NCBI GenBank assembly: GCA_032622095.1
Contig: CP136062.1
Location: 132,883,282 to 132,947,281 of the forward strand
Length of the DNA: 64,000 nucleotides
Reading direction: 5' to 3'
From: Siphonodentalium dalli
Taxonomy: Eukaryota; Mollusca; Scaphopoda; Gadilida; Siphonodentaliidae
Positions 396-41,393 of this stretch are shown one piece after another. The position numbers were made by a program, and so were the translations under genes. The stretch's first letter is position 1; each line of letters opens with the position of its first letter. Under the pieces are notes generated by a model, which worked only from the letters and a program-made list of their open reading frames with translations, did no database searches and was not told where the DNA came from.

Positions 396-474
396 TTAGT
401 CATCAGATCCATCTGGTTCTTTCCACTTTGAGGAGATTTTGTCCGATTTTCCAGATTCATGTAGAAATCTCTTC
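396..474 (-). CDS. RNA ligase-like gene, last coding exon
   Basis: Residues 364-389. The acceptor TTTCAG ends at 475 and the exon completes a codon split AT|G. It encodes KRFLHESGK..., ends EPDGSDD and stops at TAA (396-398). A second acceptor-like TTTCAG sits only 22 nt further on, too close to form an intron. Confidence 0.75.
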
Positions 475-3400
475 CTGAAATCATGAAGGAAAACACTAAC
501 ATTGATTTAATGCAGATGACACTCTAAATTTGTCAAAATTATATGGCTGCTTGTTCTTTATGCCTTTGACTTTAAAGGGGCAATGTACACTAATTCCGGC
601 CATTTATGGGACCATCTCCTATTATTCTCAAAAAAATATATGTAACCAATGAATGAATTTGCTCTATGAAGGATGCAAACAACATGGTAATTATAATGAA
701 TTTATGACTCGAGTCATTAACACATTTTCATTAAAATTACCATGTTTGTATCAATCATAGAGCACATGAGTGTATTTTGCACTAATCCATGACTCAAATT
801 CATTCATTTGTTGCATATATTATGTTGCGTATAAAAGGAGATGGTCCCATAAATGGTCGGATTTAGTGTACAGTCCCCCTTTAAAATAAATGAAGTCACC
901 ATAATTTGAAGAACTATTATCTGAAACAAGAACGTGTGTTAGTTTATTGAGTCAAATTGATTACTGGGGAAATGTTTTCAATTATTACAGCTGATTACTA
1001 AGGAAATTAAATACTGCAATGTGTAATAAGGAAAACAAATATTGCTATGTGGATATGTGGAGCTGGGCTGTTGTCCAGTGCATACAGCCTAGGGTGGGCA
1101 TACCCTAAGTAGACGTCACAGGACCATGACCATTTTCGATAACTTTTTTGTTTTTTGAGTTAAACATCGTTGGAAGTCCTCAATTATGGTGAACATTCAT
1201 ACCAAATTTCATTGAGATCTGATAACCCATGACTGATATATCTGTATGGATGGACAGAAATAAATCAACATTTGCAGAAGAGAATAACTCCAGAATGGAA
1301 AATGCTCAGATCGACAGACAGATTGATGGAGGACCGGATTCGTGTAATCCCTTATACCTACCACTTTCTTCGGTCATGGGGGTGTAAAAATATGCCACAT
1401 ATTAATGAAGACACTGCTTCATTCACAGCATCTGTCACAGTGAATGATGCTAGTAGCATAGATAAAATAATCCATGGTAAAAAAAAAAATTTAAACTACA
1501 AGTACCACCAATAATTTGTTATTTTAGTGGTAAAACCATAATTGTGAAGATCATTACTTACATAACTACTGGATATTTTTCCTCTATCTCAGATATCTTG
1601 AGTTTTCCATTGCTGATGTGCTGTATTGTCCACCCCAACAGACCAGCACCAAGCTCCGTCCACTCTGTTACTGATTCATCATCTAAATTCAGCCATGTCT
1701 GGATCTCCTTCATTCTATCTCGAATCTTGAAAAACGGTAGGAAAGTTAAGAAATTATGGAGTATACATGTAGTAATAATAATTGTTGCATCTATATATTG
1801 CTTTTCACAGTAGATTAGTTTAAATGCGCTTTACATGATTATTAGCCTGGTCATAGGGCATTGATTACCCATTCTCATTTAGGAGGAAGTAATCCAAGTG
1901 GCTAATGATCAAAGCAGGATTATAGCATATTGACAATATCAATCCACAGAAGTAGCACTTATTGTGTGAGGCTATAAAACTTTCAATAAACATGCACTCT
2001 GAAGTTTCTATCATATGGTGAAGGCGAAATTAGAGCGAGTGTAAAGTTTTTTTATATCTCATAGTGGTGAACATCCATACCAAATTTCATTAAGATCCGA
2101 GAACCTATGGTTGAGATATCTGCTCGGACGGACAAAAAAAAAACATTATTTCCAGATAAGCAAAGATAAATAACTCTAGAACGGAAAGCCTGAATAAATC
2201 TTTTGAACACTCCTCTGAATGTCCTCATAGTGGTGAACATCCATACCAAATTTCAATGAGATCCGACAACATGTGCCTGAGATATCTGCTCGGACAAACA
2301 AAAACCAACATTTCCAGATAAACAAAGACGAATAACTCTAGAACGGAAACCCCAAACAAAACGATTCAACACTCCATTGAAAGTCCTAATAGTGGTGAAC
2401 ATCTATACCAAATTTCATGGAGATCTGACAACCAGTGGTGGAGATATCTGCTTGAATGGAAGGACAGACAGAAGGATGCCTCCGACGGAGGATCAGATGC
2501 ATGTAATCCAGTATAACCACCATTTTCTTCGACATGGGGGTATAATTATGTGAAGAGAGATAAGTGCTTATAAGCATCATTATTAATACTAAAATGCAGT
2601 TGACCTGCACCTACAGCTCAATTGTGCTGATGATGTAATGGTATATGCCCACTTTTCCAAAATGAAAATTAAAACAGTATAGGAGTTGTTTCAATAGCTG
2701 AATGGTACCTTTCTGGTATATCTTGATATAGAGAAGTTGCCAGGATTTTTTACTGACATTCTGGTGGCAGCTTTAACCTTCTCCCTTATAGCTCTGCATA
2801 CTATGTACCTAGAAAAGAAACAAATAGAATGGAATAGTTAACTATAAAGGAGGAAAATAAAAATATTCATAGTTAGGCCAAAGACAAATAAAGAGTGTGC
2901 TCTCAGGCACTGCCCATGTTACTAAAACCCGTTGCATCAAACTTTTTTATGGGGTTTTTGGGGTGAGGGATCGGGATAATTTTGAATAAAAATGTTTGTT
3001 TTATCAACATGTAACATTCAACATGCAAATACATGAGCTCTAACATATCTCTGTGTAAAGTACTCACATAAATTAAACAGTGTGAGATACCACAACATTC
3101 TATCTATATATATAATTTTGTATTTTCATGAACTGATTTAAAGGTACTCAATCCGATTAAGCACCCCTAAATTACTATTTCTTTGGCTTCGGGGGTAAAA
3201 AATATTTGATTCGAGTCGAGGAAACCACCCTTCAAAGTTCAGAGTAATCAGATATCGATTTTTGAAGTTCGTTATTTTTTTTAATCTGGTCCACTTTGAC
3301 GCGCTCAAACGGACAAATTACTGACAAATTGCGGGTGTAAGATGGATAACTCTAAAATCAAGTGGTTATTATTGTTAATAGTAATCACTTGATTATAGAG

Positions 3401-6400
3401 TTATCCATCTTACTTCTGCAATTTGTCAGTACTCAGAAGCATGGACTCGTAAGGGACATGTACATCTGAAATGTTTTATTTTGTAGGAATGTTTTTGAGA
3501 TTTATAAAGAAAAACAAAAAAAAACGCCTCTCCCTCATCAAATTATTTTGCTAAAATTCCCTGAGAGCACAAACTTTTTTTTAATGGCCTTTTGTGTAGT
3601 TTGTGATTGAAAATGTATTTATTAGTTTAATTCTATTTTTTTGAAAGTTAACCCAGCTGTCATCTATTTCCACAATATACTTTGTTTTCTAAAATTCTGC
3701 TAATTCTTGAATATACACTTCTAAACATAGTTGAATATTGTTCGCAAACAATGGTTTTCAAATAGCCAAATTCTCGTCGCTGAATAAAGGCTCCCAAAGG
3801 GAACCTCTTTCAGCTAGTATTTAATAAAAGGTACCTCAGATACTTTCAATAATTACAGAATAATTATATTACCAGATGGTTTTCTTTTTGAGAAGCCCAA
3901 ATACAGTATTCTCTTTGTCAAGGAAGTAGAACACTTCTCCCTCATAATTGTAGCCTTGTCGAATCTGAATATAAAAATATTTCTACTACTAAAGGCAAAC
4001 TTGGTGAGACTTATTGAACGGAAAGCCATTAATGCATTATTGGTATAAACTGCTCTTTTATATCAATGAAGCCAGTCAAGCCTGCAAATATTGTCTGTCA
4101 TTTGCAGAATGAGGTCCCCAGAGGGTGAATTTAGTGATGCTATCCCAAAGTGGGCTAGCATCACCAAATTCAATCTCTGGGGACCTCATTCTGCTTGGCC
4201 TCATCTACTGGGAAGTATCCATAGTCTCAAATTAATATGGTCTCCCATAGCAGTTGAGGCCTAAGCAGAATGAGGTTCCCAGAGGATGAATTTGGTGACG
4301 CTAGGATGCTGTGCGGGATAGCATCACTAAATTCACCATCTGGGGACCTCATTCTGCAAATGACAGACACACTATTTGCAGGATTGAAGCCAGTTTATGT
4401 CACAAAGCAAGCATATGCTGTTCATGTAGAAAATGTAAACAAATCAATTTATAATTAGACGATTTGTCATTCATATCTAAACAGGGTTCGAACTGTCAGT
4501 GGCCAAATTGGCCAGTGGCCATTGTTTTTTTGAAAATGGATAAAGTTTGTTTTTTTAATTTCAAGGATATGGTCAGCAGTCACATCTCAAATAATCAGAT
4601 CTCTGAAACCCATAATCAGCTAACAGGTACCAGCAGTTGCCCGCCTGTTTATGAAATATTTACCCAGGATCTCTAATTCTGCACTAGCACATATACTGTC
4701 ATGAAAGGGTTAATCAAGTGACAGTACTTACTGCTGTGTGGTTCCAAATAAGACAACGTAGGCGAATCAGTGATCATTTATGTTAATATACATAATGTGA
4801 CTAATGTTGTTACTGGCTAGACCTATTTCAGTTCAGGGGAGCGGATAGTTCAGTTGGTTAGTGGGCCGAACTCTGAGCTACACCTTCATTTGGTTGAAGG
4901 TTTATAACCGACATGGTATTGGTCGGAATTTGTGTAGGAATCTGCATTCCCAGTACCATGGGCATCACAAATTGACCATCAATGTCATGATCAGTGCTCT
5001 GAGAACGATTCCAAAAGCAAAAGGAATCTCAGACAAATTTGAAAAATACGTACTGGGCGAGTTTCATATCTCCGCTCCTCTCGTAATGTCATAACCAGGG
5101 ATAGGATAGGATAGGATATTTTATTTCAATATACACATATTAATGCATGATACATTTGACAAATATTATATTGTATATTCGAGGGGGTGGCATAGTCAGG
5201 CCAGGGATGACACTATGCTATGCACACCATCGGATCGAGTGCAAGAATATGCGCACATTAAAGATCCCCACTGTGGCAAAGAAGTCATTCATCAGAAAGC
5301 TCTCGGGTCTGCTGTGGTTAAGGAGTCGATTATTTAGGGCATTACTATAATGCTCTATAATGTGGGAGCTAGCAGTGCCACAGATAGATAACAGTTTTTG
5401 CAGTTCCCATCCATGCAAATTTATCACTTTTGTCCAACTCAATATATATTGGTTATATTTATGTGTATTTCTTGATATTTTTGTTTTAGTTTCAGATTTC
5501 TCAATGATCCCATATTTTGGTTTTTCAATTTGGCGAAAGTTTTTGAAAATGGCCAAAATATTCAGAAATGGCCAAAAAAATGGCCAAAAGAATTTTCCAC
5601 CCAGCGTGAATACTGTATTTATACTGGTCAGATAAAGTATTCTCAATGTGTTGAAAACAAATGAATGTGAATGAAGGCTAATGGTAACGCACAGTCACAA
5701 AGTTCATTAGATGTAAATAAATTTTCAAAAAGTTGTATGTCTGGCAATGAACTGCATATTTGGTTGAAGAAGTAAGATAAATTGATTTTAGGCATGAGCT
5801 AAACATTAAAGCATATGGTAAGATGAATGATTATAGACCATCCTCAAAAGTATCTTGTGTTTACCTGCGCTATTCTCTCATCTAATTTGCACAATGGTAT
5901 GACTTCATATGTGACTGGGTCCAGACCAAGAGCCTTAGCTATCTGAAAAGAAGATAGTATATTTATATATGTCAAGACACAGAGGTACAGAAACTTTCCG
6001 CAGACCTGGCCCACTCTCCTTACCAATAGTGATATGTTTTAAGATCCAGTCTTTCATAATCAAACAGGCTACTGAAAAGGGGGTTGAAATGTCCGCGCTG
6101 AAGTTAGGAAGTATTACGACTGAACAACATTGCATTACAAAGTAACCCTTGGAATCAAAGTGCAGTGAACTCAAGCCTTGAAATATTGTGTCTGACATTT
6201 GTAGAATGAGGTCCCCAGAGGGTGAGTTTAGTCACGCGGGTAGCATCACCAAATTCACCCTCTGGGTACCTCATTCCACTTAGGCCTCATCTTATGAAAA
6301 GTATCTATAGTCTCAAATTAACATGATTTTTAGTTACTTTTTCCCTTATGTTCAGTTTCTATATCCACTAATTTGCAGAAGATAAATTGCATAATCAAGG

Positions 6401-9400
6401 TCAAGTATGGGTGGACATCATCAACTTCAACTGGGGAACATTAATCTCCCATAGCAGTCGAGGCCTAAGCAGAATGAGGTTCCCCTCAGATAAATTTAGT
6501 GATGCTAGCGCACCGTGAGGGATAGCGTCACTAAATTCACCCCCCTGGGGACCTCATTCTGCAAATATCAGACATATTAATACATGCTTGGTTCCCTTAG
6601 GAAATGTTCAGATAATAAGTTCAACAAACAATATATTATCTGAACAGTTCCCTCCAATAAATAAGGCTCCTTCTACACATTTATTATCTGTCGTCTGCTT
6701 ATTTTTGCTGAACTCCCCTCAGATGAATAATTGACACTTCCAATGTATTATTTTATAAATGAATTTGAGAATTCATTTAGTACAGAATTGGTTAATACAT
6801 GGAAATAGACTACTCGGCACATTGAGTTGCCTGCATATAAATAAATGTCTGTGATCGAATCCTCGACCACCTTCTTCGCCCAGGCTGCATTTGTGTTCAT
6901 TTTCCATGGTCTAACCACCTTGACTAGAGTGACATCTTTCAAGCGAAAGATCTTTCACCAACTTCACATAGAGACTTATAGTTGAATTGCTAATTAGTCA
7001 GGTTTTAAATGAGATGAGGGTAGTTCTACCAACCTATATAAACTGCAGCGTAATTTCAGTATGAACCATTTCTATACTAAATAGTAAATTTCCCTTAGGA
7101 AATGTTCAGATAAAATAAGTTCAACAAACTACCAGTTGAACTTATCATCTGAACATTTCCCACCAATGAATATGAATCATTATGGTCTTGTATTATCTAT
7201 TTTTCTGTCTGTCATCTGCTTTTATTATGTGAACACCCCTACAAATGAATAATAGACCATTTCAATTTATTCTATTATAACTAGGTGGGAGAATCCATTC
7301 AGTATAGAAAGGGTTAAAACAAGGCATGGTGAATAACAAAGTAAATATGTGGAATCAAAGTGTCATGCTAACAAGGATAATAGCAATTAAACATTCCTAA
7401 ATTCACCAAAATGTTTGAATACAGGTGAAAATGTGGCATCCACAGAAATTGAGAAACCTCAGAGCTGATAGAAAGGTTAATATGTTCAATCTCAAATGAC
7501 TTTATGCACTACTTCCTGTCTATCTCACATGTTCAAGGAAATGGTTAGCTGTCACAGACAAAAATCTAAATTTCTTACTGAAATGATGGTTTTGTTGTCT
7601 CCTAAAATAGCCACAATTAATCAAAGGGTTAACCCTTTCAATACTGGAGCTTTCTGAAATTTTGCAAAACCCCTGTGCCAATGCATTCTCTTATATAAAC
7701 GAGTCTCCCACAGGGAGATATAAGATAATACATTGGCCTAACAATATTTACCTTGACCTTGTATGCCAGTGCATTCTCTTATATATGAGAGGCTCCCCAT
7801 GGGAGACTTGCATATATAAGAGAATGCACTGGCATATGATATTTAATGCAGCGTCAGTGCAGCTCCCATCATGAAAGGGTTAAATCCATGTATGTTTGAA
7901 GGAATGTAATTTCATCTGACTTACTTCTATTCCAACATGAGGTGGCATTGTGCATAATTGAGAAGACTGATCAAAGTCAAGTTCTGCCGATGTCCATGTG
8001 ATAAACTTGAGTGACGGACTGTAAATACAAAGGGTACATGTATTATATATAATGTATGAAAAAAAACAGCTTTACATATAGGAAGAACATCATACAACTA
8101 ACATGAAAAAAATACTGTGAAGTAATAAGTTAAAACAATTGGAAAAGTAGAGTATGAAAAACTTAAAGTTAGACTATTTGATTGTACATAAGCAATCATG
8201 GGCATTATCATTGCATTTATGGGCATATGTTAACCCTTTACCCAACAAAACGGCCAAAAACGCCCAAATAAAGCTTCAACAGCCTAAAATATCTTCGGTC
8301 TGTCTCAATAACAATATACAAATATGGATATCATTGGAACCGGTTCATTGACCACATTGTGATGGTTACAGTTATGCCCTGTGCCAATGCATTCTCTTAT
8401 ATATGCGAGTCGACCATAGGTCGCCTCGCATATATAAGAGAATACATGTTTCACAATTTTATAATTTTTTCTTACATTTTTTAACAATTTTTATAATATT
8501 TTTCTACATTCTTTGACAATTTTATCATTTTTAATATGTGTTAAGCCAATGCATTCTCTTATATATGCGAGGCAACCTATGGTTGACTCGCATATATAAG
8601 AGAATGCATTGGCACAGGGCCGTTCTGTTGGGTAAAGGGTTAAGTGGACAAAATGATGAGTTTCTTCAGCCTTTCATAGATAATTCCAACAATAAATATA
8701 ATTATGTCATAGATGTCTGTGCAAAAATGCAATTTGGAAATTTGAATGTTTCATTGCTTCAATACCTTTACCTAATACAATGCATGGGTGAATTGAAACT
8801 ATTATTGTTGTAAACTGGGTTTTGGGGTTAGCCCAATAAGACTACTACTTTCAGTTCTGTATAAATGAAGTTGTAATCTTTCACATTCACATTTAAAATA
8901 CCTTTTGAGATGAGATAAGTCTTCGACGTGGTGATGACTGGGTGACAATATTTCGAACACTGTAGTGAGCCTCGTGTGAGCAAGGAAAGACATGAGCCTG
9001 TAAATAATAAAGACCAAACCTTGAAATACAGTAATGCCCTAAATAATCAACTCCTTAACCACAGCATAATTATGGGTAATTTTTTAGTGAGAGCATTCCG
9101 ATGAATGGCAACAAGCCATATTTCCGACTAAACCCTGAAAAGTTACCCATAATTCTGCTGTGGTTAAGGAGTCGATTATTTAGGGCATTGCTGTGGTGTG
9201 TCTGCCAATTGATTATGCGGTACCCAGTGGGTGAATTTAGTGACTTTATCCCGCATGGTGGGCTAGCATCACCACATTCACACTCTGGGAATCTCATTCT
9301 GCTGAGGCCTCAACTGCTATGGGAGACAAGCATCAGATTGAAGTTCCCCAGTTGAAGTTGGTGATGTTCACCCATTAGTCACATCGATTATACATTTTAT

Positions 9401-12400
9401 CTTCTGCAAATTAGGAATATGAAACTGAACACAATTGAAAAAGTAACTAAAAACAATGTTAACTTGATACTATAGATACTTCCCAGAAGATGAGGCCTAA
9501 GCAGAATTAGGTCCCCAGAGGGTGAATTTAGTGATGCTAGCCCACTGTGCGGGGTAGCATCACTAATTTCACCCTCTGGTGACCTCATTCTGCAAATGAC
9601 AGACACACCATTTCAAGGTTTGATAGAGACAAGCTTAGGCCAGATAAATAAAAAAAAATTGTTTCTCGGGGAAAGCCTCATCACCAAAAAACCTGCTCCT
9701 CAAGCTTATTAATGACCTGCCAAAATTAACCCTTTCTATACTAAATGGATTCTCCTATTCGGTTATAAAAGTATACATTGGAACAGTCTATTATTTAATT
9801 GGAGGGGTATTTAGGTAACAAAAGCAGACAACAGGCAAAAAAAAAAAGATATTAAAACTAAATTCACCCTCTAGGCATAGCAGCCAAACATTGCCAATTG
9901 AACTTCGGAACATAATTATCTGGGGACCTCATTCTGTAAATTCACCTTTGGGGACCTCATTCTGTAAATGTCCAACACCATATTGTGTGGCCTGATTCTG
10001 GATGACTTTGCAATTTAAATTGTTTGATGAGACTCTCTGCAGGTAATGAGGGAGTTGCCTGAGAATACAGTATTTTTTATTTAATTGGCCTAAATACCAG
10101 CCTGTTGATGGTGGACTACATTTGGAAGAAGAAGAGACGACAATTCATTTATTTAATAAAAAAAAACTTGGCTGGGATAAAATAACCATCTGCCATAATT
10201 TCAAATTCAAATTTAAAATATAGTTTTCTGATATTTAGTTGAAAGGCATCTTGATACAACTCTCGGAATACTGGGAATTATACAAACATTAAGGCAGGGA
10301 CCTATATGAGTATAATGACAAAATTTAATTCTCAATTATTTCTCAGCTATTTATAAATGTCTGATGTGTTTATTATCACTGATTAACATTCAGAGTCAAA
10401 GTTGATGGGCATTTTATTCTTTGGAGAAAAAAACCCTATAAAACAGCGAAGAAACATGCATCAGAAAATGGAGAACATAGTGTATAGTGACTGGTGAGTA
10501 CGTCATATAATCACTCATACAGGGGTGAATATATTTTTTTCAAAATTAACTGGATAATATTGTAACAAATTTACAATTGCCTATAAAACAAGTAAATTAT
10601 ACAAACGACATTACTAAAAGCATGAATAACGACATTACTAAAAGCATCAATTAATGTAAATGAACAAAACGATTGAACACTCAATCGATTGCATCATAAT
10701 AGTGAACATCAATACCAAATTTCAATGATATCCTTCAACCCGTGGTGAAGATATGGACAAAAAACCAACACTTCCAAATCTACAAAGATGAATAACTCTA
10801 GAATGGAAAAAAACGATTGAACACTCAATAAAACGATTGAACATCCATACCAAATTTCATTGAGATTTGTCCACTGCGGTGGAGATATCTGCTCGGATGG
10901 ACTCTGTTGAATGCCCTCATAGTAGTGAACAATCCATAACAAATTTCATTGAGATTCGTCAAACAGTGGTGGAGATATCTGCTCTGATGGACTAAAAAAC
11001 CAACATTTCCAGATAAACAAAGATGAATAACTCTAAAAGGGAAAATCTGGAAAAAACAATTGAACACTCCGTTGAATGCACTCATAGTAGTCCATAGCAA
11101 ATTTCATTCAGATCTGACAACTGGTGTTTGAGATATATGCACAGACAGATGGACGGTACAACTGAGGGACAGTTGTCCGGATGGAATGATGGATGGACGA
11201 GGTCAATCCAGTATACCCCCCATTATCTTCGAGAGTGGGGGCATAATAATCAAAATAATATCCATCCAAATTATATCCATGAAATGTTTCCTTTTAGGTT
11301 ATGATTTTTCAAAGTTATGTACATAGTAACATCATAATACCCTAAAACTACACAAATGACATAAATATCATTCCACCCGCCAACCATGTCGACATATATG
11401 TCGTTCATACTGCCAAAGGGTTAAATTTAAAGCTAGACAATCTGGTTACACGTATATAAACAGTGGGATTAATTATCGTTGCATTTATTTGTGCTTGAAA
11501 TTTTAAATGGATGAAATCATCAGTTTCTTTACAAATTTCATAGATAATTCTGTCGACTGTTAATAGAATTATGTTATAAAATGCCTATGCCTGATGACAA
11601 TTTTGAGGTTGTGCTTCAAAATGACTGATAGGTTACCTTTGTTTTTCTTCTTGTGACATTAGATCTAACATATCACAGATAGTTTCGCAAACTTCAGAAG
11701 CAATCCTGAATCTGTCTCCAGTGTATCGTCTGACATCATCTAAAATCAGGAAATGCTCATGTTTATTTGTCATTGTTAAATAAGATTTGGGATACCAAAC
11801 ATAACAAACAGTTAACCCTTTCATGACTGGAGCTTCCTGAAATTCTGCAAAAACCCTGTGCCAATGCATTCACTTATATATGCGAGCCTCCCACAGGGAG
11901 CCTCGTATATATAAGAGAATACATTGGCCCATAACAATATTTACCTTGACCTTGTAAGCTAGTGAATTCTCTTATGTATGCGAGACTTATGGGAGACTCG
12001 CATATATAAGAGAATGCTCTGGCACAGGATCATTAACGCTGCACCCGCGCAACTCCCGTCATGAAAGGTTTAACAGCCCGACGTCGCCATCGCACGCCGC
12101 CGCCAGCCATATTGGCGACAAGCCGCCACCAGCCATATTATCCTACCATCAGCCACATGAAAAAACTCCGCCACCGGAATTGTAAAATGGCTGAGCTATG
12201 CGCATGGGCTTATAGGTCAAGTACAACTGTACTGTGAATCGCAAAGAACTAAACCGCATTGCCTAATATCAGCATACACGTATGGACACTGCTTGGTTGT
12301 TATATTATCAGAACACCCGGGCCTCTCAATGTGGAATGGACTATTCCAATGCATGCTTTCATATAACTGAATGGGAGCATCCATTCAGTATTGAAACTTG

Positions 12401-15400
12401 AAAGGGTTAAAAAATAAATTGTTTATTTCGACACGACTCAGTCTCAGACATTGCTGGCATTTGTTAGTATATGCACAAAACCTGTAGAATAGAATAGAAA
12501 ATAGTTTGAAATATTATATATCATTACTATCGGATTCATCCTTCAATGAATCATGCATATATTGCAAGATGCCAGTGATGATAGCAGTCTGAAGTCGACA
12601 GAAGTCCCAATGTAACTTATACCAATTAGGTGGGAAACTACATAGTACATCCATGCGTTTTTTTTTTAGCATTTGTGGTGAACCCGTAGAATTCCAGATA
12701 ACATGTAGTCTTTTGGTGTTGGGCTTTTCCATAATGGCGAAAATAAATGAAGGACTTGGGGTCTATAGGAATGACTGAACTAAATGGTTTCCCATAGACG
12801 ACAGTGTTAACGTTTCAGCCAAATTCACTGAATTTAAGCCTGCAGGCCACTCCAGTGATGTTTACTCAGCTAGATTGACACCAGTTGATCATGAAAATGA
12901 AAGGAAAATCATAGGTCATGTGTTTACTTTTTAAAATAAATCCCCAAGTGTAAGACAGGGCTATCCCACAGCCAAATATTATCTGGAAAATCCCAGAACT
13001 CCAGCAGCTAATTAAATAAATTTCCCACAAAAATCCATTCCCCCATTAATTCACAAGTTTAAATTATTTAGATATGATGTATGAATCAAATAAACAAGAT
13101 TTCATCCTTTAATAATGCGCCACATGTAACAGGTGAAGGTCATTCTTCAGTAACCTTCACCTCTAGCAATTCCAGGTGCACTCGCTCCCCGACTCTGGAA
13201 CACATTTAGCTCCCTGATTCCTATAACTGGGGTTTAGGACAATTTCGGAAACGAAAATACGCTGAATGATAACGTCTCAGCTGGCTGAGCCGCCATATTT
13301 CATCAGCCACGAACGTCGTGACTGAGCCGGCTTAGCTAGCTAACCAGCCACGAAATTGGTTGAGCCAGCCGCGAAAACTATTTGTTGTGGCTTCGGGGTC
13401 TAATCAGAATCATGATCCTTGTATTTAAAAACGAGATAGCTACTTTTCCAAAATGCCTTGATCCACATCCTTGCTGTATCTCACTTATAAAAATTATACT
13501 GGTATCTAGCAACATCACACTACCTCTTGTCATTATACACAAACAAACAACATAAATATACCAAAAACCTAACTACATCCTACTAGACACAGATATTTTC
13601 TGCTAAGATTCCATTGAGAGCCAATATAAAGATTTTATTACTGAATATGTGGTTCAACCTCAAACAAGGAAATGGTACCACTTTAAAAGTAGTTTCTATT
13701 GCTTAAATAAAAAAGTATCGACACCATGATTCAATTTCAGACCACAATTTATGTTGCAGTAATATTGTAGGTCAACCATGTTAAAGCGAGTTAGTTTATT
13801 AAAGGCATGGATGGCCTTGGTTGTAGGTTTTAACCTCTTGGCTGCTACTGTCTGTACTCAGTACGGACATAAAATGTCCCGCTGTGTGCTATACAGTAAT
13901 GCCCTAAATAATCGACTCCTTAACCACAGCAGAATTATGGGTAACTTTTCAGGATTTAGTCGGAAATATGGCTTGTTGCCATTCATCGGAAAGCTGTCAG
14001 TAAGAGTTGTAAACAAAATGGTGGCAATTTTAATAAAAGTTCACTTGGTTGGGTCTCCCCGGTGTTCAGTGTTTTGCATATCACACACTCTTTATGTACT
14101 GTATCAAAACATTTGTTTTTGTTTACTAACAAGGCATATGATCTTGACAATGACATGCTATTTATATGCAATATTAATGATTGGTATAAGAACAACATTT
14201 TTCTATATTTTAATAATCTTTCTGCTTATGGCAATTTTAATGGATGTGCTATTTTAACAGCAATACCCATCAAGAAGGTCATCCGTGCCTTAACCCTTCC
14301 ATGACTGGAGCTTCCTGAAATTTTGTGAAAACCATGTGTCAATGTATTCTCATTGGGGAACCTAACATATATTAAAGAATACATTGGCCTAACAATATTT
14401 ACCTTGACTTTGTAAGCCAGTGCATTCACTTATATATGCAAGGCTCCCTACGGGAGACTCGCATATATAAGATAATAGACTGGCACAGGAACTTTAATGC
14501 TGCACCAATGCAGCTCTCGCCAAGAAAGGGTTAAAGAATAGCTGCATCTCATACCTTTTTTATTGAACAACAAATGGACGTTTTTTGATCCACCACAGAA
14601 TATAATTTTGCCTGCAACAACACAACAACTAAGATGAGCAGCTTCTCCATTGGCTTTCTTTGTGCAAATTATCTTGGATGTCGCATCCAATGGCTGAAAG
14701 ACAATAAGCACTTACCACATTAGAAGTTATTCCAATTCCTCTCTTAACCCTTTTTTCACTGAATGGATTCTCCCATCTAGTTATAAAAGTAGACATCGGA
14801 ATGGTCTATCAGTCATCCGGAGGGATGTTCAAGAAATATAAGTAGATGACAGATAACAAAAGTTGAGTAGAATTACTATTGATTGGTTGGAAATGTTAAT
14901 ATGGCTGCTTGTTGAACTTATTATCTGAACATTTCCAAAGAGAACTACATGTACTCATCAATTAGTATTTATGATAGAAATGGTTAATCAGAGAAATTTG
15001 TTAGTAATAATGGCATGGGAATGTTTTAAAGATGCATTATCCGAATTAACGATCCCAAATTACTATTTCTTTGGCTCCGGGGGTAAAAATATATTTGATT
15101 TGAGTCGAGGAAGCCACCCATCAAAGCTCAGAGTGATCAGATATCAATTTTTGAAGTTTGTTATTTCTCGAGATGTGCAACTATTTGTGGCCCAGAAAAC
15201 AGTCATCAAACCATCAGACAAAATTGTGGATGAAGATGGATAACTCTAAAATCAACTGGCAATACAGCCAAATTTTGTGATACTCAAGTGATAACATAGC
15301 CATATTTTGTTGAACAAATGTTGATAAAAAAACACATTTTGGGAAATTTGATACATGTACATATACATATTTAATGCACTACTGCATAACAAAATATGAT

Positions 15401-17505
15401 ATGGAATTGTTTGTGACATAATGTGCCTGTCGGATCAACTGGTCCTTTCATGTTGCAATATTTTCATCTATGCAAAATTTAAGTAAAAGGTCATAAGTCA
15501 GGCAGCCAAAATGCAGAGATTGCGGCTGGAATATAAATTTGAGCGATACATTTCGAAAACATACATAGATGACAATACAAATTGCGATGCATGCTATCTG
15601 TTATGGTCTATGTGTATCATAATGCAGATTTCTACTGACTGGACTAACCTTCGTAAAATACTTCTTCCATGTGAAATTGTCGCCTTTATCCCTGTCATCA
15701 TCATCACCGAGACCTCCTGTAAACTTCTTCAGAGCATACACAACACACTGGATTCCACGATCATCTCCCTTATCTATGTTCAAGAAGCAGTTTCCTCTTG
15801 CTACCTTCAGATTAAATAAGAAGACAATATAAACATTTGCAAATGCTTACAAAACAGACAATTATCGAATAGGATTATTTGTTTTCTTTTACAGGCAATT
15901 AATGCCAAATTTCTTTAGTATATGGACAAAATGCAATCACTAAAGTTTGTCAGTTGACCAAAGTTGAGCCGATTTACAAAAGTAAGGTACATGTATTGTA
16001 TTCTGTAATCAAACATGCAAATTTTGCAAAGTGTTATACAGTGATACCTATAGAATGCTTTAAGGGGGTGCTTCATGTGCTTTGTCATCCTAGTTCCAAA
16101 TATATTGCAAACATATACTAAATACCCGTTGTTTCAAGAGCAATTAACATTGCCTGAACAGTGTCAAATACAGCTGAGCATTTTTAACTGCACTTCTAGT
16201 TACTGTAATAAGACCCATAGCTAATGTAAGTGTCAATGACACTGTTGGCCATGTTTTTCATCGAACTTTGTTCAAATTTGATCTCTCTTATTTATAGGAA
16301 TACTTTACAGGCGAAAAGTGTGACACCAGCTCTGTCCCTTTTGACATGCCTCATTTGAACAAATTTGAATCCCTACTACATCCAAGGCCCCTTCACACCA
16401 TATGTCAGATTAATCAGCCCGGTGGTTCCTGAGAAGATGTTTTAATGAGTCTCAGTAATTTCATTGAAGAAAAACGTCATGAGTTCCCTAGCTCGGCCCC
16501 TTTTTGACCCGGAGACCCTGTTTTAACAAATCTCGAACCCATTCACACAAGGACCCTCTGTACCAAATAAAAGCTAAACAGAACTCACGGTTCTCAGAAG
16601 TCATATTAAGAATTGCTATGGAGGGAAAGAGCTATTTTCCTGACTCATTTGTTCAACTGGGTTGACACATCTGAATCCCCTTCATCTAAGGATCATCTAC
16701 ACGAAATATGGCCCCATCTGGTATATCGCTTCTGAAGAGGAAGATGTTGATGGAAGATGGATGGACATATGGATGGATAATGGACAATGGAGTGATGACT
16801 ATAGGCTAGCTTCACCAGATGCAAGCTAAAAAAAAAAGTGGCTTTTTGGGGTGTTGGCAAACTTCCACCTCGATAAGCTGATAAGGGGTACAACAGAAGA
16901 CACTGCTCACTTCTATAGAGGTGGGACAAAAAGGGCTGTAACACATGTACAAATAATTGGACGAAACCCATATTCAAACTTGCCTGGCCTGTATATTTGG
17001 ATGTGAAATACACGAACAAACTTTGGTTATGATCAACTAATCCAACCTGGGTTATTGGTTGGAAACCAAAATGTTATGAAATCGGGTAAATTCTTAGTCG
17101 AAAAAGAGCCATATGCCCATAAATATAATTGGATGGAACCCATATTCCAACTGCGCCTGAATTTCTGGCTGGGAAACACACATACCAACATTGATTCAGA
17201 TCAAGTAATCCATACTAGAGTTATCGGTCGGTTAACATATGGATGGATGGATGGCTATTCAAATGGGCATATAATAAATTATATAAAGAGAAATTAATCC
17301 CCAAGCATCAGTTCTTCGAACACAAAGAAGTTAATCTCACCCGGTCTCTGATTTCTTTATGATTGTCAAATATTGGATCATCTGGACCGAACTTAGTGAA
17401 GACTTTCACATCATGTAAGATTCCTGTGATCCCATTTGGTAGAATACCAAAAGGGACTGGTACAGTCACAATCTTTAAATTAGGATCCTGTTTTGCCCAT
17501 TTCAT
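396..17505 (-). CDS. Predicted T4 Rnl1/Trl1-like RNA ligase (nucleotidyltransferase), 10 coding exons
   Basis: Ten exons with GT/AG borders and matching phases join into one 389-codon frame: 17341-17505, 15649-15804, 14555-14693, 11637-11739, 7925-8018, 5865-5942, 3873-3964, 2709-2808, 1562-1725, 396-474. The protein has motif I TKKANGE with nucleophile Lys120, motif IV YEGEVFYF at 252-259 and motif V LLKKKTIWY at 269-277, then a helical C-terminal region. KANG at about residue 120 and the 133-residue spacing to EGE match T4 Rnl1 (K99 to E227) and fungal Trl1 (KANG). These enzymes activate a lysine with ATP and seal 5'-phosphate/3'-OH RNA ends. No kinase or phosphodiesterase domain follows, so this would be a stand-alone ligase. 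The start is the first ATG after the acceptor at 17510; the frame upstream in the likely 5' exon has a stop. RNA ligase function is inferred from motifs; substrate and localisation are unknown. Confidence 0.82.
576..880. mobile_element. TTAA-flanked 305-bp MITE
   Basis: Terminal inverted repeats of about 40 bp begin AGGGG(C/G)A(A/C)TGTACACTAA at both ends and are bounded by TTAA at 572-575 and 881-884. The TTAA duplication is the target preference of piggyBac transposases. No coding capacity. Confidence 0.8.
1094..1395 (+). repeat. Tandem-core element T1, short copy
   Basis: One unit of the T1 family (gtgaacattcataccaaatt, attgagatc, gatatctgt, then a run of gga-rich sequence), followed by the family's 3' end: ccttatacct...catgggggtgtaaaa, an imperfect hairpin. 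It lies in the ligase gene's terminal intron. Confidence 0.6.
1562..1725 (-). CDS. RNA ligase-like gene, exon 9
   Basis: Residues 310-364 (IRDRMKEIQTWL... to ...EEKYPVV). Phase 0 entry after CAAG, donor GTAAGT at 1561-1556. It encodes an amphipathic helical segment with WTELGAGLLGWTI, part of the C-terminal domain beyond the catalytic core. Confidence 0.85.
1975..2556 (+). repeat. Tandem-core element T1, about three units
   Basis: Roughly 110-180-bp units repeat catccataccaaatttcat, gagatatctgctcgga and gataaataactctagaacgg. The array ends in ggacagacagaagg and a hairpin, ataaccaccat...tgggggtataatt. Reading frames on the minus strand here are by-products of the repeats. Confidence 0.7.
2709..2808 (-). 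CDS. RNA ligase-like gene, exon 8
   Basis: Residues 276-309 (YIVCRAIREKVKAATRM...). It completes Trp276 from TG|G, with acceptor TTTTCTAG and donor GTACCA. It continues directly from motif V, as the Y-x-x-x-R-x-x-R-E stretch does after motif V in fungal Trl1. Confidence 0.85.
3142..3435. repeat. Truncated copy of the AGGTACTCAA TTAA-MITE family with internal hairpin
   Basis: It starts after TTAA (3138-3141) with the end seen intact at 51633 and 59853. An internal inverted repeat (gatggataactctaaaatca against tgattatagagttatccatc) follows, and then the far end is lost. It lies in the intron between exons 7 and 8. Confidence 0.6.
3873..3964 (-). CDS. RNA ligase-like gene, exon 7 (motifs IV and V)
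   Basis: Residues 246-276. It carries YEGEVFYFLDKEN (motif IV, Glu253-Gly254) and FGLLKKKTIW (motif V lysines 271-273), which in this superfamily contact metal and the ATP phosphates. Acceptor ATTCAG, donor GTAATA. Confidence 0.87.
4077..4386. mobile_element. hAT-type MITE with terminal palindromes, 310 bp, 8-bp TSD
   Basis: Ends CAAGCCTGCAAATA and TATTTGCAGGATTG. Flanked by the direct 8-bp repeat AAGCCAGT (4069-4076, 4387-4394), the duplication length of hAT transposons. Each end contains a palindrome of about 95 bp (ggtccccagagggtgaattt and its complement). Same family as 6172, 9194, 19454 and 48319, with a shortened middle. Confidence 0.82.
4836..5095 (+). repeat. tRNA-derived SINE-like element
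   Basis: ggagcggatagttcagttgg at the left end looks like a tRNA 5' half with an RNA polymerase III A box, and a degenerate B-box-like stretch follows. It is not a tRNA gene: the cloverleaf cannot be completed and the sequence runs on for about 180 bp. Confidence 0.45.
5096..5127 (-). repeat. LINE/SINE 3' tail, (CCTAT)n
   Basis: On the minus strand, tattgaaataaaata is followed by repeated CCTAT. This pattern is typical of a non-LTR element 3' end. The upstream body on the minus strand (about 5128-5270) is not recognised. Confidence 0.4.
5272..5345. repeat. Partial mariner-type palindromic MITE
   Basis: catcagaaagctctcggg is followed by ctgctgtggttaaggagtcg and agggcattact, which matches the right half of the complete copy at 50511-50724. 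The left half is missing. Confidence 0.6.
5865..5942 (-). CDS. RNA ligase-like gene, exon 6
   Basis: Residues 220-245 (IAKALGLDPVTYEVI...DERIAQ). Exactly 26 codons, phase 0 on both sides, acceptor TTTTCAG, donor GTAAAC. Confidence 0.85.
6172..6590. mobile_element. hAT-type MITE with terminal palindromes, 419 bp
   Basis: Full-length relative of 19454-19872 (same 419-bp length), with both end palindromes and the unique middle (ttaacatgatttttagttac). Ends CAAGCCTTGAA and ACATGCTTG. No clear 8-bp duplication remains, so the flanks have changed or the copy is recombinant. Confidence 0.7.
6595..6791. mobile_element. TTAA-MITE family 2, partial copy
   Basis: It contains aggaaatgttcagataataa and its inverted partner, then atgaataattgacac and an end at ggTTAA. 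Related copies: 7091, 9730, 14748 and 54352. Confidence 0.5.
7091..7313. mobile_element. TTAA-MITE family 2 copy
   Basis: It contains the foldback gttcagataaaataagttca / tgaacttatcatctgaac and ends in agaatccattcagtatagaaaggg before TTAA (7314-7317). Confidence 0.6.
7633..7879. mobile_element. Foldback TTAA-MITE, 247 bp (CCCTTTCA family)
   Basis: Begins CCCTTTCAATACTGGAGC and ends GCTCCCATCATGAAAGGG, between TTAA at 7629-7632 and 7880-7883. The interior holds two hairpins built from gccagtgcattctcttatat and its complement. Same family as 11816, 14294 and 29228. Confidence 0.82.
7925..8018 (-). CDS. RNA ligase-like gene, exon 5
   Basis: Residues 188-219 (PSLKFITWTSAELDFD...). Enters by completing AG|T (Ser188) and leaves at phase 0 with the perfect donor GTAAGT. 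The aromatic-rich LKFITW strand lies where motif III is expected, but the motif is not clear-cut. Confidence 0.83.
8234..8639. mobile_element. Foldback TTAA-MITE, 406 bp (CCCTTTACCCAACA family)
   Basis: Begins CCCTTTACCCAACA and ends TGTTGGGTAAAGGG, flanked by TTAA (8230-8233, 8640-8643). It contains two copies of the hairpin ccaatgcattctcttatata...tatataagagaat, a module shared with the 247-bp family. A partial relative is at 36222. Confidence 0.8.
9029..9193. mobile_element. Mariner-type palindromic MITE, 165 bp
   Basis: Begins CAGTAATGCCCTAAATAATC after TA and ends GGGCATTGCTG. The arms are near-perfect complements. A shorter-centred copy of 50511-50724. Confidence 0.7.
9194..9622. mobile_element. 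hAT-type MITE with terminal palindromes, left tip lost
   Basis: Both terminal palindromes and the middle region are present, in the opposite orientation to 19454. The right end is CAAGGTTTG. The left tip abuts the mariner-type MITE ending at 9193, so one element inserted into or recombined with the other. Confidence 0.65.
9730..9975. repeat. Fragments of TTAA-MITE family 2 and the hAT MITE
   Basis: ccctttctatactaaatgga (TTAA at 9726-9729) to about 9850 is the end of TTAA family 2. ctaaattcaccctctaggc and ggggacctcattctgtaaat (about 9858-9975) are pieces of the hAT MITE end palindrome. Confidence 0.5.
10625..11252 (+). repeat. Tandem-core element T1, four to five units
   Basis: Repeats of catccataccaaatttcatt, ggtggagatatctgctcgga and acaaagatgaataactcta. 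The array ends in gatggatggacga and a hairpin, agtataccccccat...agtgggggcataat. It lies in the intron between exons 4 and 5. Confidence 0.72.
11637..11739 (-). CDS. RNA ligase-like gene, exon 4
   Basis: Residues 154-188 (DDVRRYTGDRFRIASEVCE...). Acceptor TTTTAG, donor GTAACC, phases 1 in and 2 out. It is a helical segment between motif I and motif III. Confidence 0.84.
11816..12069. mobile_element. Foldback TTAA-MITE, 254 bp (CCCTTTCA family)
   Basis: Begins CCCTTTCATGACTGGAGC and ends CTCCCGTCATGAAAGG, between TTAA at 812-815 and 070-073 (11812, 12070). Same two-hairpin interior as 7633. Confidence 0.8.
12330..12408. repeat. TTAA-MITE family 2 end fragment
   Basis: aatggactattccaatgcat to agcatccattcagtattg, then aaagggTTAA. 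It matches the right-hand end of 7091-7313. Confidence 0.5.
12514..12732 (-). CDS. Possible nested small gene, 72 residues, unidentified
   Basis: An uninterrupted frame from ATG (12732) to TAA, in the intron between ligase exons 3 and 4, on the same strand. The product starts MEKPNTKRLHVIWNSTG. It has a basic run (MLKKKRM) near residue 21, a PPNWYKLHWDF segment and an acidic tail (SLKDESDSNDI). A canonical AATAAA lies about 85 nt after the stop (minus strand, about 12425-12430). The composition looks more protein-like than the repeat-derived frames around it, and it lies outside the recognised MITEs. No family recognised. It could be a chance frame, an alternative terminal exon, or a small intronless gene. 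Confidence 0.35.
   Translation of the reverse strand: MEKPNTKRLHVIWNSTGSPQMLKKKRMDVLCSFPPNWYKLHWDFCRLQTAIITGILQYMHDSLKDESDSNDI
13894..13998. repeat. Half of the mariner-type palindromic MITE
   Basis: Starts at TA|CAGTAATGCCCTAAATAATC and reads through ggcttgttgccattcatcgg to the midpoint of the palindrome, then stops. It corresponds to one arm of 50511-50724. Confidence 0.65.
14294..14530. mobile_element. Foldback TTAA-MITE, 237 bp (CCCTTTCA family)
   Basis: Begins CCCTTCCATGACTGGAGC and ends CTCTCGCCAAGAAAGGG, between TTAA at 14290-14293 and 14531-14534. It lies just 24 bp beyond the donor of ligase exon 3 (14554). Confidence 0.8.
14555..14693 (-). CDS. RNA ligase-like gene, exon 3 (motif I, catalytic lysine)
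   Basis: Residues 108-153. It carries IICTKKANGEAAHLSC. The KANG tetrad is the covalent nucleotidyl-lysine signature, identical to the form in fungal Trl1. GKIIFCGGSKN follows, as the beta strand after motif I does in Rnl1-type ligases. Acceptor CTTTCAG, donor GTATGA. Confidence 0.87.
14748..14983. mobile_element. TTAA-MITE family 2, 236 bp
   Basis: Begins after TTAA (14744-14747) with CCCTTTTTTCACTGAATGG and ends tagaaatgg before TTAA (14984-14987). It contains the internal gaacttattatctgaacatt block seen in 54352. Confidence 0.6.
15030..15250. repeat. Partial copy of the AGGTACTCAA MITE family
   Basis: tactatttctttggctccgg, atttgattTgagtcgagg and gatggataactctaaaatca match internal blocks of 51633-52101, without the ends. 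Confidence 0.55.
15649..15804 (-). CDS. RNA ligase-like gene, exon 2
   Basis: Residues 56-107 (VARGNCFLNIDKGDDRG...). Exactly 52 codons, phase 0 on both sides, donor GTTAGT. It includes ALKKFTGGLGDDDDRDKGD, an acidic loop before the catalytic exon. Confidence 0.83.
16290..16830 (+). repeat. Tandem-core element T2, about three units
   Basis: Units of about 135 bp carry gaacaaatttgaatcc, accatatgtcagattaatca and tcctgagaagatgttttaa. The array ends in a gatggatggacat run and the hairpin tagcttcacc...gcaagctaaaaaa. It lies in the intron between exons 1 and 2. Confidence 0.7.
17341..17505 (-). CDS. RNA ligase-like gene, first coding exon
   Basis: Residues 1-55 from the ATG at 17505; the exon itself begins at 17509 after TTCTTCTAG. 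It encodes MKWAKQDPNLKIVTVPVPFG and continues GILPNGITGIL.... Donor GTGAGA. No better upstream coding exon was found, so the start is an inference; translation could begin further upstream if an exon was missed. Confidence 0.75.
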
Positions 17506-20852: not shown

Positions 20853-21250
20853 ATATTATTTATGTGGGCAGTAGCAGTAGTATTGGGGCGCCTGCGGCGC
20901 ATAAGGTACTATGGGTGGCGGGATGGGGTGGTGGGCGGGCCACCTTATACATATTATTTATGTGGGCAGTAGCAGTAGTATTAGGGCGCCTGCGGCGCAT
21001 AAGATACTATGGTTGGCGGTATGGGTGGTGGGCGGGCCACCTTATACATATTATTTATGTGGGCAGTAGCAGTAGTATTGGGGCGCCTGCGGCGCATAAG
21101 ATACTATGGGTGGCGGGATGGGGTGGTGGGCGGGCCACCTTATACATATTATTTATCTGGGCAGTAGCAGTAGTATTGGGGCGCCTGCGGCGCATAATAT
21201 CCTATGGGTGGCGGGATGGGGTGATGGGCGGGTCACCTTATACATATTAT
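20853..21250 (+). repeat. Four tandem 98-bp units with GGGCGCCTGCGGCGC
   Basis: Units start at about 20863, 20961, 21058 and 21156 (spacing 98, 97, 98). Each contains gggcagtagcagtagtattg, ggcgcctgcggcgcataag and a G-rich stretch (ggtggcgggatggggtgg). The 169-residue plus-strand frame here is just the translated repeat. Confidence 0.88.
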
Positions 21251-21495
21251 TGGCAACATTCCATTGTGAACCAAATGTCACCGTCTCAATTGAGTACATC
21301 CTTTCGTTCCGTTTACTATCAGAAAATTGTATAAAACTAAAATTGGTGGCCGTAGTTTTCTCGCTCCGATCCGATTATCTACCGCCCAGGTGGCGCTCTA
21401 GGTAATGCGGTCCTGAGAATGTAAACAGATCGCTGTCAATGTAAGGAAGTACAGTCAATCATATCAGAATCGTGGTCCTTTGACAACGTATAATA

Positions 21496-21699
21496 ATGCC
21501 ATCTTCGAGTTGTTGTGTCCCATTATGTAACGGAAGTGGAGGACATGTATTCCCTGCAGAAGTGTCTATTCGTAACGCATGTATTTATGCCATAAAACGT
21601 GCAAATTATGTTCAGAAATACGCGACTTTCAAGCCAACGAAATCAAGTGTTGTTTGCAAACAGCACTTCACATCATTGGATTATGTAGAGAAAACCTAA
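21496..21699 (+). pseudogene. Decayed THAP-type zinc-finger exon
   Basis: A 67-codon frame starting MPSSSCCVPLC with a later SSVVCKQHF fits the THAP C2CH spacing: Cys6 or 7, Cys11, Cys54-x2-His57. THAP domains bind DNA and occur in P-element-like transposases and host regulators. The conserved tryptophan before the AIKR stretch is replaced by cysteine (NACIYAIKR), and the frame ends at a stop before the usual C-terminal AVPT-like box. The reading continues in another frame. It is read as a transposon-derived remnant; no adjacent transposase domain was found. Confidence 0.6.
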
Positions 21700-32248: not shown

Positions 32249-33265
32249 TCACTTCAAAAGCAAATAATTTTTCAAAATGGTGGGCAAAGGCAAATCGTCT
32301 GTATGCTTAACAAAATTTTTACCATTAAAAGAGTCAGTAATGAAAAACCTAATTGTTCTCCGGCATTGTTGCTTGAGTGATAGTGGCTCGCAGGTGAAAG
32401 AGTCCAGAATAGCGAATGTAGGTCTGTCTGCACAGTTATTGACAGCCAAAGCGGCTCTTGCTCTTGAGATTTCACAATTTGAAGCACCAGCTGCTAATAT
32501 AAGCTTGAGGATTTCCATATTTCCATGTTTTCCAGCCCAGAATAACGGTGAGTTGTCATTAATGTAGATAGGTAACTGTGGACCTTTGAGATTACTTCCA
32601 TGAATAATCAACAGTTTAAGAACCATTGCACTGGATCTGTACATCAGGGCCGTGAGGAGAGGGGTGTAGTTATATCTGTCAGTTTTGTTGACACTAGCAC
32701 CATTTTGAATGAGATATTCCACTAAGTTGGGCATTTCTTGTCTTGCCGCCATCCATAATGCAGTATGTCCGAAATTGTCCACCGAATCTATATCTGCGCC
32801 GCAATCAACTAAATTTATCACACCTTCAACAAAATGCATTCTGCATGCTGTGACGATAGGAGGCTCAATTCTATTTAAATGGTCTTTACTGCATTTGTTC
32901 AAATCAATGTTCCCATTCTTCTCTTGATGTCGCATAAGCATATGAAACACCTCAAAGTTTCTTTTGTATAAAGAAAGTGACAAGACTGTTGATCCCTTAA
33001 CTGACAGGTTTGCGTCCAAATCTGGATATGATAGCAGAATATTCCGCACAGCACTCACACAATTTGAAATCACAGCCATGTACAGATCATACACAAGTGA
33101 AGACTGTGTGTAATCATTGCAAGCACGGAATGGTGTTATGTTTGGGTGTTTATTTCCAGTCATAACGAGATTTTCTGGAGACTGTATATGTTTTGTTTCT
33201 GGGCAGGAAGTAGCGATCATTTCCTGACTGGTACTATGATACAGGAGACAAGAGAGTAAATCCAT
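32249..33265 (-). CDS. Ankyrin-repeat and SOCS-box (ASB-type) protein
   Basis: A single-exon frame of 338 codons. Ankyrin-type helix pairs occupy about residues 60-265; the clearest repeats are 133-164 (IEPPIVTACRMHFVEGVINL), 166-196 (GHTALWMAARQEMPNLVEYL), 199-228 and 237-263. Residues 294-338 form a SOCS box: SLKQQCRRTIR matches the Elongin B/C-binding BC box and LPLPTILKNYL the Cullin-5 box. ASB proteins present substrates to Cullin-5 ubiquitin ligases in cytosol or nucleus; the substrate here is unknown. A stop precedes the ATG in frame, and a splice acceptor (tcatcaatctcag) ends 12 nt upstream of it, so a 5' untranslated exon is likely. Which ASB subtype this is cannot be told from sequence alone. 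Confidence 0.9.
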   Translation of the reverse strand: MDLLSCLLYHSTSQEMIATSCPETKHIQSPENLVMTGNKHPNITPFRACNDYTQSSLVYDLYMAVISNCVSAVRNILLSYPDLDANLSVKGSTVLSLSLYKRNFEVFHMLMRHQEKNGNIDLNKCSKDHLNRIEPPIVTACRMHFVEGVINLVDCGADIDSVDNFGHTALWMAARQEMPNLVEYLIQNGASVNKTDRYNYTPLLTALMYRSSAMVLKLLIIHGSNLKGPQLPIYINDNSPLFWAGKHGNMEILKLILAAGASNCEISRARAALAVNNCADRPTFAILDSFTCEPLSLKQQCRRTIRFFITDSFNGKNFVKHTDDLPLPTILKNYLLLK

Positions 33266-33277
33266 AACAATTCAACT

Positions 33278-39223: not shown

Positions 39224-41393
39224 GTGCGTATAAAAGCCGAACACAACCGAACACAACCGAACATAACCGAACACAAGTCCAAATAATGGGAAATATAACG
39301 AATAAAGTTCATAGGCGTGTGTATTCATGTTCACACTATTAATATACGAAGTTTGGTGGAGTTCGGGCCAATAATAAGTGTTTTATTCGATATTTTGTAA
39401 AACGCGTTCAGTGTTCGGCATAGACAAGCCGAACACAAGCTTCTCTCGTGTATTAGTCTATAACGGCTGTCTAGCTAGGTGATAATTAATATCAGATATA
39501 TGGTCACTAAGCCGAAAGGCTTTAATTGTTGTTGGTGGCGGTCTCTCGATCACCTATTGTAGTTCAGTGTTTTGACAGTTAGTTGCAATCAGTATTTGAT
39601 GGCGCCTACTATTATAGAAACAACATGCTTTTGGTGGGCCCCGCCATGAAAGTCAACGTACGATTGTAAAAACAATATTTGAGTGACAAGAAAGTGAGTT
39701 CATGGTGCAATATCCGAGAAGTTCTATATAAGAATGTGGTATGATATTATTTGGCAAATCACAATCTCAGCAGTATTTGGCATATTCTGATCTCAGGTCT
39801 GAAAATTCTACAATGCCTAATTCCAAATTGATTTACCCATGTGGTGTTTGTTCCCAGGAATGTCACGAGATACGCAGCATCGGCTGCGATATGTGTGGCC
39901 GATGGTTTCATGTAGAGTGCCAGCAATTGAAAATCAATGACTTTTTACTAAGTCATCGCTTGGTGACCAATTTAATTTATGCCAGAATCTTCGGCAAATT
40001 TCGACTGACGGACGTTTGACGATACCGAAAACCGCGGCTATTGCCAGACTAAAAGAGTAAAGGCATGCAAAACTAGATCAATCAACCCTAGCAAGCGTCA
40101 AAAGGTATCTTGGCGCAAAATAATTATTCCTTTCATATCACATTCCTGTCATATCAGGCACATTTTTGAAAACGATCTTAAATTCCTGCATATCAGCCTT
40201 TTAAAAAGATACAATACGAAACGCTCTTTATTCGTATTCAGACAATTCATTTCAATTCAATCGGTATTCGATGCATGTGTTTCTACGATAAGTTGAACAC
40301 TGGCTTTATATCGGCTTCCACCATACAGCATGATATATACACAAAAGTTAGGCACGCATCAGAGCCATTTCCATCCACTGACTTCAAGGAGAACAAACTC
40401 TGCCCAAATCCGTTCCGCCGAGGACAGAATTTGCATATAAGTATATTGTATAGTATATTGTATAGTACTTTGAACATATACTATGATTGACATCAATTCC
40501 ACCAGAATTCCCTGCACCATCACCAAGAGATGTTATGTCGCCAACAAGAACACTATTATATATAATTTTACAATGTTTACTTATGATTGCAATAAACTAT
40601 TTGTTTTGTGGTTATAGTATTATATTCTCCGAACCATTTCCGCATGAGTATCTTAACTCGACAACCGATTTACTACTTCTTAGAAGTCCGGGGCGTGCTG
40701 ATATGTTCGCATTTGTCCAGTATGATCCATCTAAACTACCACACTGTACGAAATGACTTGTAATAATAACGGGGGGGGGGGGTAACATTTTAGTGAAAAT
40801 GCAGACGAAAATGGACAACAAAACACGTTTTTTCTCGCGAATTAAACCTGCCAAATCCCTTCTGGCAGATATTAATTATCACCTATCAGCGGATAATCTA
40901 ATCCATGAGACAGAAGTTTGTGTTCGGCTTTTCTATGCCAAACACAAACGCGTTATACAAAACACCCAACAAAACACTCATTATTGAACCAAACTCCACC
41001 AAACTTCGTATAGTAATAGTATGAACGTGAATACATATGCCTATGAACTTTACAAGGTGATCTTATATTTAGTAGACTGTATATAGAGTTATATATCTCA
41101 AACGCCAGCTAATGCCACATCTATGCATATATATGTGTTAATTAATTACCGGTGTCACTGAGTGTCGAACATAAACTTGTGTTCGGCTTTTCTATGCCGA
41201 ACACTAAACGCGTTTTACAAAATATCGAATAAAACACTTATTATTGGCCCGAACTCCACCAAAGTTCGTATAGTAATAGTGTGAACATGAATACATATGC
41301 CTATGAACTTTATTCGTGAAATTTCCCATTATTTGGACTTGTGTTCGGTTGTGTTCGGTTGTGTTCGGTTGTGTTCGGCTTTTATGAGCTCCC
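39224..41393. mobile_element. Mutator-like element, 2170 bp, 10-bp TSD, TIRs over 200 bp
   Basis: The left arm (39231-39445) and right arm (41175-41391) are inverted copies running from aaaagccgaacacaaccgaa to the MluI-like acgcgtt stretch and the ggcat-gccgaacac pair. The element is flanked by direct repeats ATATTCGCCG (39214-39223 and 41394-41403). Long inverted ends with a 9-11-bp duplication are the hallmark of Mutator/MULE elements. A second, tandem partial copy of the right arm lies at about 40910-41055. The interior holds a PHD-finger fragment and no recognisable transposase, so it is non-autonomous. Confidence 0.8.
39741..40019 (+). pseudogene. PHD-finger fragment inside the Mutator-like element
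   Basis: The frame contains YPCGVCSQECHE, IGCDMCGRWFHVECQQL, i.e. C-x2-C...C-x2-C-x4-H-x2-C with the aromatic WFH characteristic of PHD fingers, zinc modules that read histone tails and that also occur in invertebrate transposon proteins. Only about half of the domain remains (the last C-x2-C pair is lost after KINDFLLSH). It could be a transposon's own domain or a captured host exon. Confidence 0.6.

Follow-up and report, generated by a model that had tools for sequence, protein, structure and literature searches.

Introduction

Animals are usually described as sealing the halves of transfer RNA (tRNA) with RtcB. Ligases of the covalent nucleotidyltransferase type act in a three-step reaction that proceeds via a lysyl-adenosine monophosphate (lysyl-AMP) intermediate. 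An animal enzyme called BfRNL, from the lancelet Branchiostoma floridae, was reportedly first described by Englert in 2010 and is said to have a strict requirement for a 2'-phosphate. BfRNL is a stand-alone 5'-3' RNA ligase without healing domains (PMC3400036), and the lancelet polynucleotide kinase (PNK) and cyclic phosphodiesterase (CPDase) are treated in PMC5434554; RLIG1/C12orf29 is an animal 5'-3' RNA ligase (PMC9931718) with homologues in many metazoans (PMC11494293; preprint PMC11071452), bdelloid rotifers carry horizontally acquired RNA ligases (PMC11258130), and an RNA_lig_T4_1 gene is listed for mollusc herpesviruses (PMC5552708). BfRNL, RLIG1 and the bdelloid ligases are thus published precedents, and the general idea of a stand-alone ligase with this mechanism in an animal is not a novel one. 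Our study concerns a ligase-like gene in 64,000 nucleotides of DNA from Siphonodentalium dalli (the window). From profile matches and motifs we consider it likely that this gene encodes a stand-alone 5'-phosphate/3'-hydroxyl RNA ligase dependent on adenosine triphosphate (ATP), a member of the DUF7920 family with an adenylyltransferase core like that of Rnl1 and Trl1. An earlier reading of the same DNA (the original prediction) had proposed such a core and presented it as a distinct enzyme in animals; profile evidence and the register of the motifs bear out the core, and the claim of distinctness overlooked the published animal 5'-3' ligases.

The ligase-like gene

The first 20 kb of the window were read and translated for the gene model. 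The gene lies on the minus strand, from 17505 to 396, in 11 coding exons which, when joined, give 421 codons and a stop. The exons are listed here with the residues that they contribute to the alignments described below.

Exon 1, 17341 to 17505, minus strand: first ATG of the model at 17505; upstream continuation probable
Exon 2, 15649 to 15804, minus strand: Arg58-Gly59 and Lys82-Phe83, aligned with T4 Arg54-Gly55 and Lys75-Phe76
Exon 3, 14555 to 14693, minus strand: motif I KANG, with Lys120 aligned with T4 Lys99
Exon 4, 11637 to 11739, minus strand
Exon 5, 8902 to 8997, minus strand: 96 nucleotides, phase 2 to 2; motif III TTVFEILSP, with Glu203 on T4 Glu159
Exon 6, 7925 to 8018, minus strand
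Exon 7, 5865 to 5942, minus strand
Exon 8, 3873 to 3964, minus strand: motif IV EGEV (285-288) and motif V KKK (303-305), on T4 Glu227 and Lys240/Lys242
Exon 9, 2709 to 2808, minus strand
Exon 10, 1562 to 1725, minus strand: C-terminal region; no family match above cut-off
Exon 11, 396 to 474, minus strand: TAA stop at 396-398

All 10 internal junctions are GT-AG, and the joined frame holds the terminal stop and no other, with 13 to 33 stops in each of the other five frames. This is an intact, real gene and not a chance assembly. The contrary explanation, in which open frames have come together by chance or belong to a pseudogene, can point to a 5' exon that is probably missing and to a gene known from DNA alone; set against the ten GT-AG junctions, the continuous frame with its single terminal stop and the DUF7920 match (E=2.8e-8 over residues 39-315), it is highly improbable. 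The 5' end of the model is probably incomplete, because an acceptor-like TTTCTTCTAG precedes the first ATG, ending 4 bases upstream of it at 17505, which makes a missing 5' exon and a longer amino end probable. A crude upstream search produced 5 candidate in-phase first exons, none of them convincing.

Joining the exons bore out the spliced frame of the original prediction and its KANG at Lys120; the frame is intact and runs along the minus strand from 17505 to 396. The earlier count of ten exons and 389 residues has to be replaced by 11 exons and 421 residues, exon 5 (8997-8902) having been skipped. EGEV and KKK, formerly placed at 253-256 and 271-273, were both numbered 32 too low, an offset explained exactly by the skipped exon, no other exon from KANG to EGEV being 96 nucleotides long. 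We reconstructed the 389-residue version by dropping exon 5; it would not have passed the profile check suggested in the original prediction, as it gave no DUF7920 or RNA-ligase row in searches up to E=10, in which the HMMER filters discard most weak rows, and its hhalign score against the combined Rnl1 and Trl1 profile described below was 23.6, compared with 36.5 for the full protein. Since the DUF7920 match is lost without exon 5, the correction matters for the interpretation of the gene.

Family assignment and alignment with RNA ligases

The 421-residue protein matches the Pfam family PF25536 (DUF7920) with 33.6 bits (E=2.8e-8), above the curated cut-off of 27 bits, and the match lays residues 39-315 on positions 45-314 of a profile of 315. 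The signal is spread along the protein, with 24.9 bits for residues 154-322 alone and 21.8 bits for residues 1-251 alone, both below the cut-off. In PHROGs, residues 167-319 match phrog_562, a phage RNA ligase family of T4 Rnl1 type, with E=0.0013. A search of NCBIfam gave no row for the protein, and neither did T4_Rnl1_C (PF20819), a domain present in 13 of the 18 phage proteins used for comparison. No paper naming DUF7920 was found in the literature searched.

The phage set comprised these 18 proteins: T4 Rnl1, 11 proteins from 33 loci, and six from seven further phage records, the seventh (L166), in which the gene is annotated in two pieces, being omitted. Aligned with hhalign against the profile of this set, the window protein scored 30.2 (E=0.0031), a value reached by none of 200 shuffles (best 23.1); the reversed protein scored 15.0. 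The addition of two fungal Trl1 fragments to the profile gave 36.5 (E=3.8e-4), again reached by none of 200 shuffles (best 23.9) and by none of 73 bacterial open reading frames (ORFs), the best of which scored 22.9; these ORFs, of at least 300 residues, were picked mechanically from bacterial loci and may include some shadow frames. In the combined alignment Lys120, Gly123, Glu203, Glu285, Gly286, Lys303 and Lys305 fall on T4 Lys99, Gly102, Glu159, Glu227, Gly228, Lys240 and Lys242, and T4 Lys75, Phe76, Trp245 and Tyr246 also meet identical residues. The motif I lysine, the glutamates of motifs III and IV and the lysines of motif V, which mark this mechanistic class, are thus all present, in order and in register. 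All seven of T4 Arg54, Lys75, Lys99, Glu159, Glu227, Lys240 and Lys242, invariant across the phage proteins, are kept, and in the extended alignment the window protein is identical at 12 of the 18 columns that are invariant in phage Rnl1. By these comparisons the protein bears a recognizable, though distant, resemblance to T4 Rnl1 and fungal Trl1.

A number of results weigh against a ligase assignment. The DUF7920 name carries no function, and the material that we read states none for the family. Residues 1-188 and residues 220-421, each searched alone, give no DUF7920 row in Pfam. PF09511 (RNA_lig_T4_1), which covers T4 Rnl1 and fungal Trl1, aligns with residues 134-291 at 12.8 bits (E=0.11) and does not reach its cut-off of 28.3; for comparison, the two Trl1 fragments each exceed 300 bits, and every one of the 18 phage proteins gives a match with E no higher than 1. 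The original prediction had looked to such profiles for support, and of its expectation the pairing of Lys120 with T4 Lys99 held and the family match fell short. With the phage-only profile, moreover, that pairing occurs solely in a low-confidence extension of the alignment. The hhalign probabilities are only 10 to 36 percent, the global mode of the program gave no useful alignment, a profile built from nothing but the two Trl1 fragments scored 18.7, below the best shuffle at 30.0, and BLASTP against Trl1 returned nothing significant. No solved structure was matched in a sequence search of the PDB, where the two rows obtained were chance ones (best E=0.9). Finally, six of the 18 invariant phage Rnl1 residues are altered, namely T4 Phe77, Asn78, Asp101, Ser103, Gly187 and His250.

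These substitutions, together with the weak similarity to proven ligases, lend some weight to the idea that the protein is nucleotidyltransferase-like and no longer ligates, serving now as an RNA-binding or AMPylating factor. One of them removes the Asp of the KxDG motif, where Asn122 replaces T4 Asp101; fungal Trl1 likewise has Asn at this place (KANG, KENG), and this includes the solved fungal tRNA ligases. Given also that the motif I lysine is retained, along with the two glutamates and the two lysines of motif V, we hold a loss of ligation to be unlikely.

Comparison with the known ligases

Compared by eye, the fungal Trl1 proteins (PDB 9qw7, 6n67) have in common with the window protein the motif I KANG (KENG in 6n67), upstream ARG and KF elements, the EG of motif IV and a YxxxRxxRE sequence after motif V. 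They differ in having a kinase and a CPDase fused after the ligase domain. The window gene model contains neither, as the original prediction had held: there is no such Pfam row and the model ends in the stop at 396, exons beyond the model being possible. T4 Rnl1 (gp63) has the same motif order and the aligned catalytic residues and is linked to the window protein by phrog_562, whereas the score below the PF09511 cut-off, the absent T4_Rnl1_C row and the six altered residues set the two apart.

Membership of the RLIG1/C12orf29 family would place the gene among known animal 5'-3' RNA ligases, with homologues in many metazoans (PMC11494293). The Pfam scan of the window protein gave no match to that family, however: none of its five rows bears the name RLIG1, the name and presence of an RLIG1 model in our copy of Pfam being unconfirmed, and the best family is DUF7920. 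With no solved structure matched either, we consider this assignment very unlikely.

BfRNL resembles the window protein in its layout as a stand-alone 5'-3' ligase without healing domains, a likeness drawn from its description and not from its sequence. The gene could quite possibly be its orthologue, acting in a 5'-phosphate route of tRNA splicing or repair with a separate PNK and CPDase; this is a narrower form of the proposal of a DUF7920 RNA ligase and is compatible with it. The shared layout and a similarly weak likeness speak for such a relationship.

Relatives and genomic surroundings

Searches for relatives of the protein were negative within their scope. A tblastn search of phages and plasmids with the spliced protein gave no match, and peptide-pattern scans of viral and genome contigs brought up no relative, none of the 12 stretches that carried a pattern in one scan being confirmed. 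No relative lacking introns came to light in these searches. PF25536 was absent above its cut-off from five sets of prokaryote genomes (0/12, 0/294, 0/297, 0/292 and 0/296); since the 14 control genomes had no match either, its absence from prokaryotes is suggested and not shown. Five rows below the cut-off were obtained in prokaryote genomes (L120-L124), and for two of them (L120 and L122) long overlapping frames on both strands suggest chance.

Five ORFs of the window were scanned against Pfam for the neighbourhood of the gene. One of them (32252-33271, minus strand) encodes ankyrin repeats with a SOCS box at the C-terminal end, an ASB-like arrangement; it is a clear neighbouring gene and agrees with the animal setting assumed in the original prediction. 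A PHD finger above the Pfam cut-off, in an ORF at 39732-40016 on the plus strand, could belong to a retroelement, and a fragment of 66 residues at 21499-21699, plus strand, has a THAP domain barely above the cut-off and is possibly a transposase remnant. The introns of the ligase-like gene contain many repeat copies. Among these is a palindromic repeat of about 77 nucleotides, present in five copies in three introns (7762-7838, 8380-8456, 8542-8618, 11857-11933 and 14413-14489), which looks like a miniature inverted-repeat element. A tandem array at 20853-21251 has a unit of 98 nucleotides in 4.1 copies with 95 percent matches. Scans of the window for tRNA genes and Rfam families were empty.

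Proposed mechanism and significance

The ligase motifs lead us to predict a three-step reaction through a Lys120-AMP intermediate. Lys120 would attack ATP to form the enzyme-AMP adduct, the AMP would be passed to one RNA end at its 5'-phosphate, and the 3'-hydroxyl of a second RNA end would then displace the AMP as the new bond is formed; Glu203, Glu285, Lys303 and Lys305 may hold the nucleotide and metal during this process. Healing enzymes would be needed separately, since the gene model lacks a kinase or cyclic phosphodiesterase domain; as in the lancelet, other proteins would have to heal the RNA ends made by endonucleases. We infer adenylylation and ligation, as well as the substrate and a physiological role in RNA repair or in a side route of tRNA splicing, from these features.

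By the same reasoning from sequence, DUF7920 is probably a family of RNA ligases. More tentatively, and with some doubt on our part, it might form a separate eukaryotic class of 5'-3' RNA ligases, distinct from RLIG1, Trl1, T4 Rnl1 and BfRNL and present in some animals besides RtcB, in which the protein is a sealing module and healing takes place in trans. What is new here is a likely RNA ligase function, with named catalytic residues, for a family without a known one. If true, an animal ligase of the DUF7920 family would provide a concrete and testable enzyme for sealing RNA by a route other than RtcB.
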